Assembly (NCBI GenBank): GCA_018820925.1
Contig: JAHJNJ010000033.1
Coordinates: forward strand, 1-46,280
DNA from: Gammaproteobacteria bacterium
GTDB lineage: Bacteria; Pseudomonadota; Gammaproteobacteria; Burkholderiales; Gallionellaceae
Length of the DNA: 46,280 bases
Direction: 5' to 3'
Shown: piece by piece, positions 12,632 to 18,364 of the stretch
Numbering within the stretch: the stretch's first letter is position 1
Layout: each line of letters starts with the position of its first letter
Notes under the pieces: model-generated
Databases searched by the model: none
The model's input: the letters and a program-made list of their open reading frames with translations, nothing else
Told to the model about the DNA's origin: nothing
Program-made: the position numbers and the translations under genes

Positions 12632-12776
12632 CGTCATTCCGGCTCTTCGACAAGCTCGGGGCAGACCGACCTTTGGTCATGCCGGAATCCAGTGTTTTGC
12701 GAGTTGGGCAGGAAGCCGCCCAACTCTGCGATCCTCATCCAAACCAACCGGACACCGGCTTTCGCCGGTGTGACGA
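12632..12776. repeat. Dispersed palindromic repeat cluster with strong hairpin
   Basis: A CGTCATTCCGGC / GCCGGAATCCAG pair (12632-12691) with an internal TTCGACAAGCTC segment is followed by the hairpin ACACCGGCTTTCGCCGGTGT at 12752-12771. These are familiar proteobacterial intergenic repeat motifs. The hairpin lies just past the hsp20 stop and may end that transcript, though no T-tract follows it. Confidence 0.65.
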
Positions 12777-15402: not shown

Positions 15403-16308
15403 ATGAACGACGGACGCAAACAATCGCATGCGACACGCCTCACCCGCTGGCTGGTGGGCGGCCCGCCGTTGCTGTTCCTGTTGCTGCTGGTCGCAGTTCC
15501 CGGCGCGATCATGGTGCTCGCGTCGTTCCGATATCCCGGCGAGTTCGGCGGGCTGGCGCCGCTGTTTGCCGATGCGCAGACCCTGCACGGCGTCACCACC
15601 GAAACGTACCGCTTCTTCTTTAGCGACTTCATCTACACCGAAGTGTTCCTCAAGTCCTTCGGCATGGCGCTTGCCACCACGCTGATCTGCCTGGTGATGG
15701 CCTATCCGCTGGCGATGCTGATCGCGCGCAGCCCGAAGCGGAACCGCAACCTGATGATGCTGCTGGTGATCCTGCCGTTCACCAGCAACTTCCTGATCGG
15801 CATCTACGCATGGATGATCATCCTCGGGCCGCAGGCCGCGCTCAACCATGCGATCAACGCGCTGCTCGGCGCGTTCGGCGCCGCGCCCGTGCAACTGCTG
15901 TTCTCGCCGTTTGCGGTGCTGATCGTCATGGTCTACGTGTACCTGCCGTTCATGGTGCTGCCGCTTTACACCAACCTGGAAAAGCACGACCCGCTTCTGC
16001 TCGATGCGGCGCAGGATCTGGGCGCGAACGCATGGCAGCGTTTCTGGCGCGTGACCTTCCCGCTGTCGCGGCCGGGCATTTTCGCCGGCTGCGCGCTGGT
16101 ATTCATCCCGGCCATCGGCATGTTCCTCGTGCCCGAGCTGGTCGGCGGCACGGGCGACATCATGATCGGCAACCTGATCAAGGAGCAGTTCCTCGCCACG
16201 CGCGACTGGCCGTTCGGTTCCACGCTGGCGATCCTGCTCACGCTGGCGGTGCTGCTGGTGTTGTGGATCGTGGCGAAGTTATCCGCCAGGGGAGGTCGTT
16301 ATGCGTAG
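15403..16308 (+). CDS. potB: PotB-like polyamine ABC transporter permease
   Basis: The 301-residue inner-membrane protein has about six hydrophobic helices and the binding-protein-dependent EAA loop (DAAQDLGANAWQRFWRVTF) that docks on the ATPase. I place the start at 15403 (MNDGRKQ), behind GGGGCAGGT; an in-frame TTG at 15388 is the alternative. The last eight bases overlap potC, so the two permeases are translationally coupled, as usual for the heterodimeric PotBC channel. Confidence 0.9.
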   Translation: MNDGRKQSHATRLTRWLVGGPPLLFLLLLVAVPGAIMVLASFRYPGEFGGLAPLFADAQTLHGVTTETYRFFFSDFIYTEVFLKSFGMALATTLICLVMAYPLAMLIARSPKRNRNLMMLLVILPFTSNFLIGIYAWMIILGPQAALNHAINALLGAFGAAPVQLLFSPFAVLIVMVYVYLPFMVLPLYTNLEKHDPLLLDAAQDLGANAWQRFWRVTFPLSRPGIFAGCALVFIPAIGMFLVPELVGGTGDIMIGNLIKEQFLATRDWPFGSTLAILLTLAVLLVLWIVAKLSARGGRYA

Positions 16309-17077
16309 GGGGCCATGGCTGTGGACGGCGGGACTGGCGGCCTACGTTTTCCTCTACCTGCCGCTCACCATCGTCGTGGCCTACTCGTTCAACGACTCGC
16401 GCCTGAACGCCGAGTGGGTCGGCTTCACCTGGCACTGGTACCGCGAACTGTTCCAGGATCAGGACATGCTGAATGCGGCCGGCAACTCGCTGCTCATTGC
16501 GACCCTGTCCAGCCTGTCCGCCACCTTGTTCGGCACCATGGCGGGCCTCGCCATCCATCGCTACAACTTCAAGCTGCTCAACTTTCTCGTGCTGGCGCCG
16601 GTGGCGATGCCGGAGATACTGCTCGGCGTGTCGCTGCTGCTGTTCTTCATCCAGGTGCTCAACCTCACGCTCGGCATGCTCTCCATCGTGCTCGCGCACA
16701 TCACCTTTTCCATCGGCTTCGTCGCGGTGATCGTGCGCGCGCAACTGACCAGCATCGATGAAAGCCTGTTCGAGGCGGCGCGCGACCTTGGCGCCACACC
16801 GTGGAAAACATTTCGCTACGTCACCTTGCCGCTGATCCTGCCCGCCGTGATCGCGGGCGGGCTGATGGCGTTCACGCTGTCCATCGACGATTTCGTCGTC
16901 ACCTTCTTCACCGCCGGGGTCGGGGTGCAGACGTTGCCGTTGCGCATCTACTCCATGATCAAGATCGCGGTGACGCCGGAGGTGAATGCGGTGTCCACGC
17001 TGCTGATGCTGCTCACGCTGGGCATGATCGTGCTGGCGTCGCGGTTTGCGCCGGATGTGCTGAAGGGGAAGATATGA
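16301..17077 (+). CDS. potC: PotC-like polyamine ABC transporter permease
   Basis: This 258-residue permease is the second half of the channel, with six predicted membrane helices and EAA loop EAARDLGATPWKTFRYVTL. It overlaps potB by 8 bp at its start and potD by 4 bp (ATGA) at its end. Length and motif match PotC/PotI. Confidence 0.9.
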   Translation: MRRGPWLWTAGLAAYVFLYLPLTIVVAYSFNDSRLNAEWVGFTWHWYRELFQDQDMLNAAGNSLLIATLSSLSATLFGTMAGLAIHRYNFKLLNFLVLAPVAMPEILLGVSLLLFFIQVLNLTLGMLSIVLAHITFSIGFVAVIVRAQLTSIDESLFEAARDLGATPWKTFRYVTLPLILPAVIAGGLMAFTLSIDDFVVTFFTAGVGVQTLPLRIYSMIKIAVTPEVNAVSTLLMLLTLGMIVLASRFAPDVLKGKI

Positions 17078-18228
17078 AGACCCCACAGCAAAATCGATTT
17101 AGCCACCGAGGACACAGAGCACACAGAGAAAACCGCTGCCCCCTTTATTGCCGCCGCGTTCTCTGTGGCCTCTGTGTCCTCTGTGGCTTATGGTTTGGTT
17201 TGTCGCCTTTCTCGGCGTATGCCGAAGACATTCTCCACCTCTACAACTGGAACAACTACATCTCCGACACCACCATCTCGCGCTTCGAGGACGAATGCAA
17301 ATGCCGCGTGATACAGGACTACTACTCCGACAACGAGGAGATGCTGGCCAAGCTGGCAGCCGGTGCCACCGGTTACGACATCATCGTGCCGACCGGCAAC
17401 GCGGTGGAAGCGCTGGTCCGCCAGCATGCCTTGCGTCCGCTCGACAAAAGCCTGCTGCCCAACCTGAAGAACATCGATCCGGCTTATCTGAATACCTGGT
17501 TCGATCCCGGCAACAAATATTCGGTACCCTACGCCTACACCATCACGCTGATCGGTTACAACAGCGAGAAGCTGCGCGGCCTGGATCTGCCGCTCGACAG
17601 TTGGGCGGCGATCTTCGAGCCGCGCTACCTTGAAAAAGTGAAAGGCCGCGTCACCGTACTCGACAGCCAGCGCGAACTGCTGGCGGCGGCGCTGAAGTAT
17701 CTCGGCTATTCGGTCAACGATACCGACGAAGGACACTGGAGGCAGGCGCGCGACCTGATCATCCGCGCCAAACCGTATTGGGCCGCGTTCAATGCTTCCA
17801 GTTATATCAAGGAGCTCACCGTGGGCAACATCTGGCTGGTGCACGGCTATTCCAACGACATCTTCCAGGCCGACCAGGATGCACAGAAAGCCCGGCGCGG
17901 CTTTCGCATCCGCGCCAACCTGCCCAAGGAGGGTGCGGTACTGGCGCTGGATTCGATGGTGCTGCACAAATCCGGCCCGCGTCCCGATCTCGCGCATCGC
18001 TTCATCAGTTTCATGCTCGACGGGCGCAACTCCTCCGAACTCACCAACCTGATCGGTTCCGGCAATCCCAATCGTGCGGCACAGCCATACATCCTGCCGG
18101 AGATCGCCGACAACCCTTCGGTCTTCCCCAATCACGAACAGCAGGCGCGCCTGGAAATGCTGCGCGACCTCGACCGCAACCAGCGCCGCGTGTTGTCGCG
18201 CATCTGGACGGAAATAAAGCTGCGTTGA
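17074..18228 (+). CDS. potD: PotD-like periplasmic polyamine-binding protein with repeat-derived signal peptide
   Basis: The mature part, from about residue 51 (EDILHLYNWNNYISDTTISRF), is a typical PotD/PotF polyamine-binding protein and delivers substrate to PotBC in the periplasm. The start is fixed by the ATGA overlap with potC at 17074. Residues 10-38 are encoded by an 88-bp inverted repeat (17101-17188); the resulting stretch VLCGLCVLCGLWFGLSPFSA forms the hydrophobic core of the signal peptide, with likely cleavage after AYA. The n-region is unusually long and His/Arg rich. No alternative start lies closer to the hydrophobic core. Total 384 residues, slightly longer than usual because of this segment. 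Confidence 0.88.
   Translation: MKTPQQNRFSHRGHRAHRENRCPLYCRRVLCGLCVLCGLWFGLSPFSAYAEDILHLYNWNNYISDTTISRFEDECKCRVIQDYYSDNEEMLAKLAAGATGYDIIVPTGNAVEALVRQHALRPLDKSLLPNLKNIDPAYLNTWFDPGNKYSVPYAYTITLIGYNSEKLRGLDLPLDSWAAIFEPRYLEKVKGRVTVLDSQRELLAAALKYLGYSVNDTDEGHWRQARDLIIRAKPYWAAFNASSYIKELTVGNIWLVHGYSNDIFQADQDAQKARRGFRIRANLPKEGAVLALDSMVLHKSGPRPDLAHRFISFMLDGRNSSELTNLIGSGNPNRAAQPYILPEIADNPSVFPNHEQQARLEMLRDLDRNQRRVLSRIWTEIKLR
17101..17188. repeat. Inverted repeat inside the potD coding sequence
   Basis: The 30-bp left arm (17101-17130) and right arm (17159-17188) match at 27 of 30 positions as reverse complements; each is built from CACAGAG units (right arm CTCTGTGTCCTCTGTGGCT). This is a familiar dispersed intergenic repeat in proteobacteria, here in frame within the signal-peptide region of potD. 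Confidence 0.85.
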
Positions 18229-18263
18229 GTTTGAAAGTTTGTGGATGAGTGAAGTGAAAGGAT

Positions 18264-18364
18264 TGTCCGCAGATTACGCAGATTAAGTCAGTTGCGTGCA
18301 AATGCGGCATCAGGCAAGGAATGGGTGCGTGATTCAAACTGATCAGGGTTTAATCTGCGGACAA
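18264..18364. repeat. Inverted repeat TGTCCGCAGATTA...TAATCTGCGGACAA
   Basis: The left arm at 18264-18285 (TGTCCGCAGATTACGCAG followed by ATTA) and right arm at 18350-18364 (TTAATCTGCGGACAA) bracket about 65 bp after potD. This resembles another dispersed intergenic repeat. The 259-bp gap 18229-18487 otherwise holds only the upstream region of the dnaK paralogue; no clear sigma-32 promoter was found. Confidence 0.7.

Follow-up and report, generated by a model that had tools for sequence, protein, structure and literature searches.

A dispersed palindromic repeat that probably supplies the signal peptide of the polyamine-binding protein PotD

Introduction

REP elements are short, dispersed, intergenic palindromes that carry a GTAG-type tag and are mobilized by RAYT, and the palindromic elements of Rickettsia have inserted in frame into functional protein-coding genes, where they are known from the mature part of the protein and not from leaders. 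The repeat described here resembles REP elements in that it is a short, dispersed, intergenic palindrome and resembles the Rickettsia elements in that it lies in frame, but it is located in a leader, that of the polyamine-binding protein PotD. Ordinary Sec signal peptides of PotD/PotF have a positive start, a hydrophobic core, and an AxA-type end. The repeat-bearing PotD leader has the same parts, but its core comes from a dispersed repeat and its n-region comprises about 28 residues.

RU-2, an intergenic small mobile repeat of Yersinia, encodes residues 1–30 of the annotated exported protein YPO1552, including a portion of the predicted signal peptide, and the leaders of relatives are unrelated (Delihas, 2007; PMC2759123). 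The two cases are alike in that an intergenic repeat encodes part of a predicted signal peptide. However, RU-2 in YPO1552 is one case in a putative protein of 144 residues (PMC2759123), whereas the potD repeat lies in the gene of a conserved transporter, occurs there in several families and several lineages, and has two arms that read as n- and h-region. A repeat-derived predicted signal peptide is therefore already known from RU-2 in YPO1552, and what is new here is recurrence at one gene. A literature search, judged mostly by title, brought up no description of the repeat class, of a PotD leader derived from a repeat, or of recurrent leader capture.

Results

The stretch of DNA analyzed (46,280 nucleotides from the genome of a member of the Gallionellaceae, a relative of iron oxidizers; hereafter the window) encodes an operon of the potABCD type. 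By similarity to solved members, its PotD is a polyamine-binding protein of the PotD/PotF kind (3ttm, 2.2e-70; 1a99, 2.1e-67), and the NCBIfam PotD and PotF models both match it below their equivalog cut-offs. The mature part has a dN/dS of 0.11 between the window's species and its sister species and of 0.085–0.135 across five pairs, which shows purifying selection on mature PotD. The TGA of potC ends at 17077 (...KGKI-TGA) and the ATG of potD begins at 17074, and this ATGA overlap fixes the start of potD, as the preliminary description of the locus had proposed.

Table 1. Features of the potC–potD junction and of the palindrome in the potD leader, in window coordinates.
Feature	Position	Strand	Remarks
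potC, permease gene	16301..17077	+	BPD_transp_1 match; best NCBIfam model is PotC, score under cut-off
potD, polyamine-binding protein gene, 384 aa	17074..18228	+	SBP_bac_8, 9e-28; similarity to 3ttm/3ttk, 2e-70
potD leader, 50 codons	17074..17223	+	Cleavage after SAYA placed by eye
Palindrome left arm	17101..17130	+	Reads SHRGHRAHRE: basic n-region
Loop separating the arms	17131..17158	+	From ungapped-core scoring
Palindrome right arm	17159..17188	+	Reads VLCGLCVLCG: hydrophobic core (h-region); the top 11-residue hydropathy of the leader, 2.75, starts here
Leader remainder, LWFGLSPFSAYA	17189..17223	+	W aligned with MIW/MMW of short leaders

The PotD leader reads MKTPQQNRFSHRGHRAHRENRCPLYCRRVLCGLCVLCGLWFGLSPFSAYA, and the mature part begins with ED. 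An inverted-repeat search recovered arms of 39 nt at 17101–17139 and 17150–17188 (82%), and palindrome scoring placed the best ungapped core at 17101–17188 (30 + 28 + 30 nt), a core matched by none of 40 leader shuffles. This scoring confirmed the 88-bp inverted repeat of the preliminary description, with 27 of 30 arm positions paired and in frame at codons 10–38, and the right arm indeed reads as the hydrophobic core of the leader (Table 1). The RNA of 17045–17200 has a folding energy of -69.8 kcal/mol (z -6.5), and none of 200 shuffles was equally stable. An Rfam search of 16800–17500 with E up to 1 returned no match to a known RNA family.

Without the repeat, the best 11-residue hydropathy of the window leader is 1.21 rather than 2.75, which is below the lowest value among short PotD leaders (1.68–3.43; n = 86), and only 3 of 5,000 shuffles of the repeat in place reached 2.75. 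The sole in-frame start 3' of the right arm, a TTG, would leave just LSPFSAYA, which is no usable leader. Because the hydrophobic core is absent without the repeat and a usable later start is lacking, PotD, if exported, has to rely on the right arm for its core. By simple scoring and reading by eye, the leader has the basic n-region (charge +7), hydrophobic h-region (2.75), and small residues at -3/-1 (SAYA) of a Sec signal peptide; the length of the n-region (28 residues) counts against this reading. The remainder of the leader, judging from the alignment of its W, is probably the end of an older leader. Conservation of the gene (mature dN/dS 0.11) suggests that the signal is a working one and that PotD would be exported by the repeat-derived peptide.

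The units of the repeat are 7 bp long and recur at 9-bp spacing. Four matches to the 18-mer CCTCTGTGTCCTCTGTGG, with up to three mismatches allowed, were found in the window, all within the potD repeat (0.01 expected). In the window's genome, a search with a 101-bp stretch recovered places on C39, C33, C34, C2, and, weakly (E 0.16), C37, to which the unit motif added C14 (one arm only) and two places on C15. This motif has 21 matches in the genome, four of them in the potD repeat, and the reversed pattern has none. The copies at these eight places are intergenic when read by eye without gene annotation. The preliminary description had taken the repeat to be of an intergenic, dispersed kind, and the genome count of about eight places beyond potD bears this out. 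A plasmid search with the repeat gave a single record, from Gemmatirosa, in which 82% of the query aligned at 74.7% identity.

Related repeats are present well beyond the window's genome. A degenerate superfamily pattern has matches in all 20 genomes searched (8 to 160 each, versus 0 to 5 for the reversed control; both strands counted), with 14 versus 3 in the window's genome. The lowest counts are near the control (10 versus 3 in G545 and 8 versus 4 in G546); in the same two genomes an 8-bp-period form has 8 and 18 matches versus 0 for the control. Homologs that share the exact leader in genomes free of dispersed copies, which would speak against uptake of an intergenic repeat, were not seen: repeats of this family or of others occur in the relatives, and in each of the 20 genomes the superfamily motif is more frequent than its reversed control. 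A partial counter-case is G099, where potD holds the sole exact CTCTGTG-CTCTGTGG of 15 matches and the rest belong to other or mixed families, so that the potD repeat is not of that genome's common family. The dominant family varies by genome: most matches are TTTCGTG in G093 and CTCTGTG in G095, and those of G099 are CTTCGTG and mixed.

To describe leaders among relatives, 210 potD loci (159 distinct) were gathered by closeness to the window's PotD, a sample that excludes some order-level matches. Palindromes were scored at the 126 loci with an adjoining potC and at least 62% identity; the other 33 distinct loci comprise 24 under 62% identity, eight for which potC was not found, and one with potC too distant. 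Two loci at contig edges (L045, L094) were dropped. A palindrome of the window's architecture is present in 19 of the 126 leaders, in at least six sequence families: CTCTGTG (L039, which is the window, L040, L042, L063, L066, L068, L071, L110, L165, and L190), TTTCGTG (L044, L058, and L069), an 8-bp-period family, CTCTGTGC (L112 and L114), CTTCGCG (L119), CTCCGTG (L115), CTTTGCG (L046), and mixed CTCTGCG/CTTTGCG (L233). The weakest, that of L068, scores 10, and the highest score among its 40 shuffles is 9. Outside the 19 are L059 and L070, which have a TCGACAGG-type element, and L183, L152, and L167, which have other palindromes that score above their own shuffles.

The remaining leaders are mostly plain, such as the 17-residue MMWRSLLFLLFIGSAYA of the sister species, and most of the 126 lack a strong palindrome (scores mostly 3–8, matched by shuffles). 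Alignment of relatives thus showed what the preliminary description anticipated, namely ordinary short leaders that are replaced or preceded by the repeat. Since a palindrome is also found in a one-contig genome (L165 in G335) and in Sulfuricella sp. T08 (L046), it is more than an artefact of genome binning. A one-base overlap with potC (ATGA, GTGA, or TTGA) opens 13 of the 19 palindrome leaders and many short leaders of relatives as well. In one related family (L179, L183, L186, L188, and L189), leaders resemble those of lipoproteins, with a terminal GC (AGC, TGC, PGC, DGC) followed by a polar stretch, so relatives may not all export PotD by one route.

On a DNA tree of the potC end and mature potD (41 rows; 14 of 38 inner branches open), at least 14 changes of leader state are required, 10 of them between repeat and none. 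Plain leaders occur in the sister of the window's species (support 100/95) and in L072, the sister of L068 (100/97). A protein tree built earlier from 134 rows, in which 52 of 131 inner branches are open, implied 20 state changes, including 15 between repeat and none. A single ancestral insertion in the Gallionellaceae clade was rejected, in that the seven CTCTGTG rows do not form one clade (p-AU 0.0003), and a single clade of the three TTTCGTG rows was likewise rejected (p-AU 0.0003); in both tests the groups had been defined on the data used to test them.

Species that are not sisters share leader tails (LWF/IWF; LVQLNCAHA) and a loop segment, GFASWARSCPSLPKPIL, which is also present outside potD at 12694–12729 of the window and at two places in G006. 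These shared tails and loops indicate that alleles were inherited or exchanged too and that many Gallionellaceae rows are not separate insertions. Because of this, captures may conservatively be put at about eight rather than one per row: Gallionellaceae CTCTGTG, L165, TTTCGTG, the 8-bp form, L119, L115, L046, and L233. A target-site duplication was not established. The copy at 12694–12729 is 89% identical to the segment in the palindrome loop of three relatives, so palindromes of the potD type seem to take nested insertions. In the non-sister species of L063 and L110, an extra segment of about 60 bp, which reads ITSDLA..FW.PSRMASSYI, splits the left arm.

The last unit of the right arm falls at codon position 1 (phase 0) in 18 of the 19 leaders, a measure that was chosen after the data had been seen and from which the decayed copy L043 was excluded; left arms occur in phases 0, 1, and 2, and other units are in other phases in the 8-bp-period form and L119. 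The exception, L190, has its own ATG and a complete ordinary leader 3' of the repeat. An in-frame ATG that follows the repeat, and could be the true start, is present in four of the 18 (L044, L058, L115, and L119), and L112 has an ATG between the arms. The chance of one common phase over about eight captures is roughly (1/3)^7 = 0.0005, which is only a guide given the post-hoc measure and the four rows that could start later.

Among 46 CTCTGTG copies (two in potD), hydropathy reached at least 2.4 in 19 of 92 reads in phase 0, 4 of 92 in phase 2, and 1 of 92 in phase 1; most of these copies came from loci found with the LCVLCG peptide, which biases them toward phase 0. Open reads were equally common in phases 0 and 2 (78 of 92 each), with median hydropathies of 2.02 and 1.86. 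In the window's genome alone (six copies), hydropathy of at least 2.4 was seen in 1, 0, and 0 of 12 reads, and open reads numbered 6 of 12 in phase 0 versus 10 of 12 in phase 2.

Peptide surveys were used to search for other genes that use the repeat as a leader. Among the matches listed for 158 family genomes, places were found in at least 65 genomes. We viewed 26 loci, of which 24 had open frames containing the repeat (27 frames), and 25 frames were scanned against Pfam, with two duplicate sites omitted. Six scanned frames have a domain (GATase_4, Pribosyltran, T3SS/FliI-type ATPase, MurG-type, NusG_II, and ABC_tran). In five of these a Met lies between repeat and domain, and in the sixth (L285) the domain starts more than 300 residues later; the NusG_II frame (L292) has no start codon ahead of the right arm of the repeat. 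The long frames outside potD that were followed thus either lack a known domain or belong to genes that have their own Met after the repeat. A survey of the order gave 22 places in 9 of 399 genomes (E up to 5e-5), where the only stop-free frames of at least 300 are potD of G000 and G335 and an antisense frame at G335; four shorter frames were scanned and had no Pfam domain, most shorter frames being outside the scan. With the TTTCGTG family, nine places were found in 7 of the 158 genomes; two have long frames, potD of G093 and L348, the latter without a Pfam domain. Within these limited peptide surveys, no gene other than potD was found to use the repeat as a leader. Known potD carriers were missed, namely G095 with the family peptide, G030 and G180 with TTTCGTG, and G050, G191, and G358, which have other repeat families, in the order survey; other genes may therefore have been missed too.

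Discussion

From the position, frame, dispersal, recurrence, and codon phase of the repeat, we infer that a dispersed palindromic repeat, read in the potD frame, probably supplies the n- and h-region of the PotD signal peptide, and that the same slot has been filled repeatedly by different families. This supports the earlier reading of an intergenic repeat taken up as a secretion signal. A repeat with 7-bp units and 9-bp spacing would have inserted just behind the potD start codon, and the end of the old leader would have been kept, as the aligned W suggests (IW/LW versus MIW/MMW). The left arm would then form a hydrophilic, basic n-region and the right arm a hydrophobic h-region, with the cleavage site supplied by the end of the old leader. 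Different repeat families would have filled this slot several times in related Betaproteobacteria. In Cys-type families (LCVLCG) the right arm would be the core; in families of the Arg type (FRVFRG, LRVLRG) its contribution is more likely charge, with the native segment that follows it acting as core.

It is very improbable that translation starts after the repeat and that the repeat is an untranslated potC–potD spacer. L190 and L070 likely have such a start, and the four leaders with an ATG after the repeat may have one, but the only later start in the window is the TTG that leaves no leader, and the one-base potC overlap opens 13 of 19 palindrome leaders just as it opens many short ones. Also unlikely, although a good deal less so, is that an RNA hairpin is what is kept, the stem inside potD setting mRNA stability or the potC:potD ratio and the peptide being a tolerated by-product. 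The stem is very stable (-69.8 kcal/mol, z -6.5), and several different palindromes at one place would also fit selection on a stem. However, most of the 126 relatives lack a strong palindrome there, and a hairpin does not need the single codon phase of the right arm in 18 of 19 leaders, the out-of-phase case having a later start and an ordinary leader.

Capture of the repeat as an export signal is compatible with a further alternative that concerns advantage only. That potD is a harmless landing site for an intergenic repeat, signal peptides tolerating nearly any hydrophobic segment, such that the capture is real but confers no advantage and draws on no special property of palindromes, has about an even chance. 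The frequent changes of leader state (at least 14 on 41 rows) and the equal openness of phases 0 and 2, with similar median hydropathies, favor this alternative. Conversely, 18 of 19 leaders use phase 0, and hydropathy of at least 2.4 is commoner in that phase (19 of 92 reads, versus 4 and 1), although the choice of loci by LCVLCG favors phase 0.

A special suitability of palindromes would have a simple basis in sequence. In an inverted repeat, codons with a middle T (hydrophobic) face codons with a middle A (hydrophilic), so a hydrophobic right arm implies a hydrophilic left arm. We tentatively suggest, while regarding it as doubtful, that a properly framed inverted repeat is a ready-made signal peptide, its left arm often basic, and that dispersed palindromes form a standing reservoir of export signals for which the potC–potD junction is a hot spot of leader replacement. 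The locus would provide an example from natural genomes of how non-coding repeat DNA can give a conserved gene a new export signal, and more than once, and closely related pairs with repeat and plain leaders permit its cost or benefit to be measured.

The potD repeat was also considered as a RAYT-mobilized REP, and this was rejected. It has no GTAG tag, its termini being AGCCACAGAG...CTCTGTGGC(T/A/C) in the copies viewed, and its motif is present in none of the nine Y1_Tnp neighborhoods examined, of 31 matches found in seven of seven genomes. Two of the four Y1_Tnp genes of the window's genome (L305 and L308, on C14 and C24 of G000) adjoin GTAG-containing palindromes (CTGTAGGTGCGAATTCATTCGCAC; GTAGGGTGGGCACG...), which are possibly true REPs. 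A second palindrome lies directly 3' of the potD stop in the window (18263–18364), with arms TTGTCCGCAGATTA and TAATCTGCGGACAA; its left arm extends as CGCAGATTACGCAGATTAA, where the spacing is again 9 bp.
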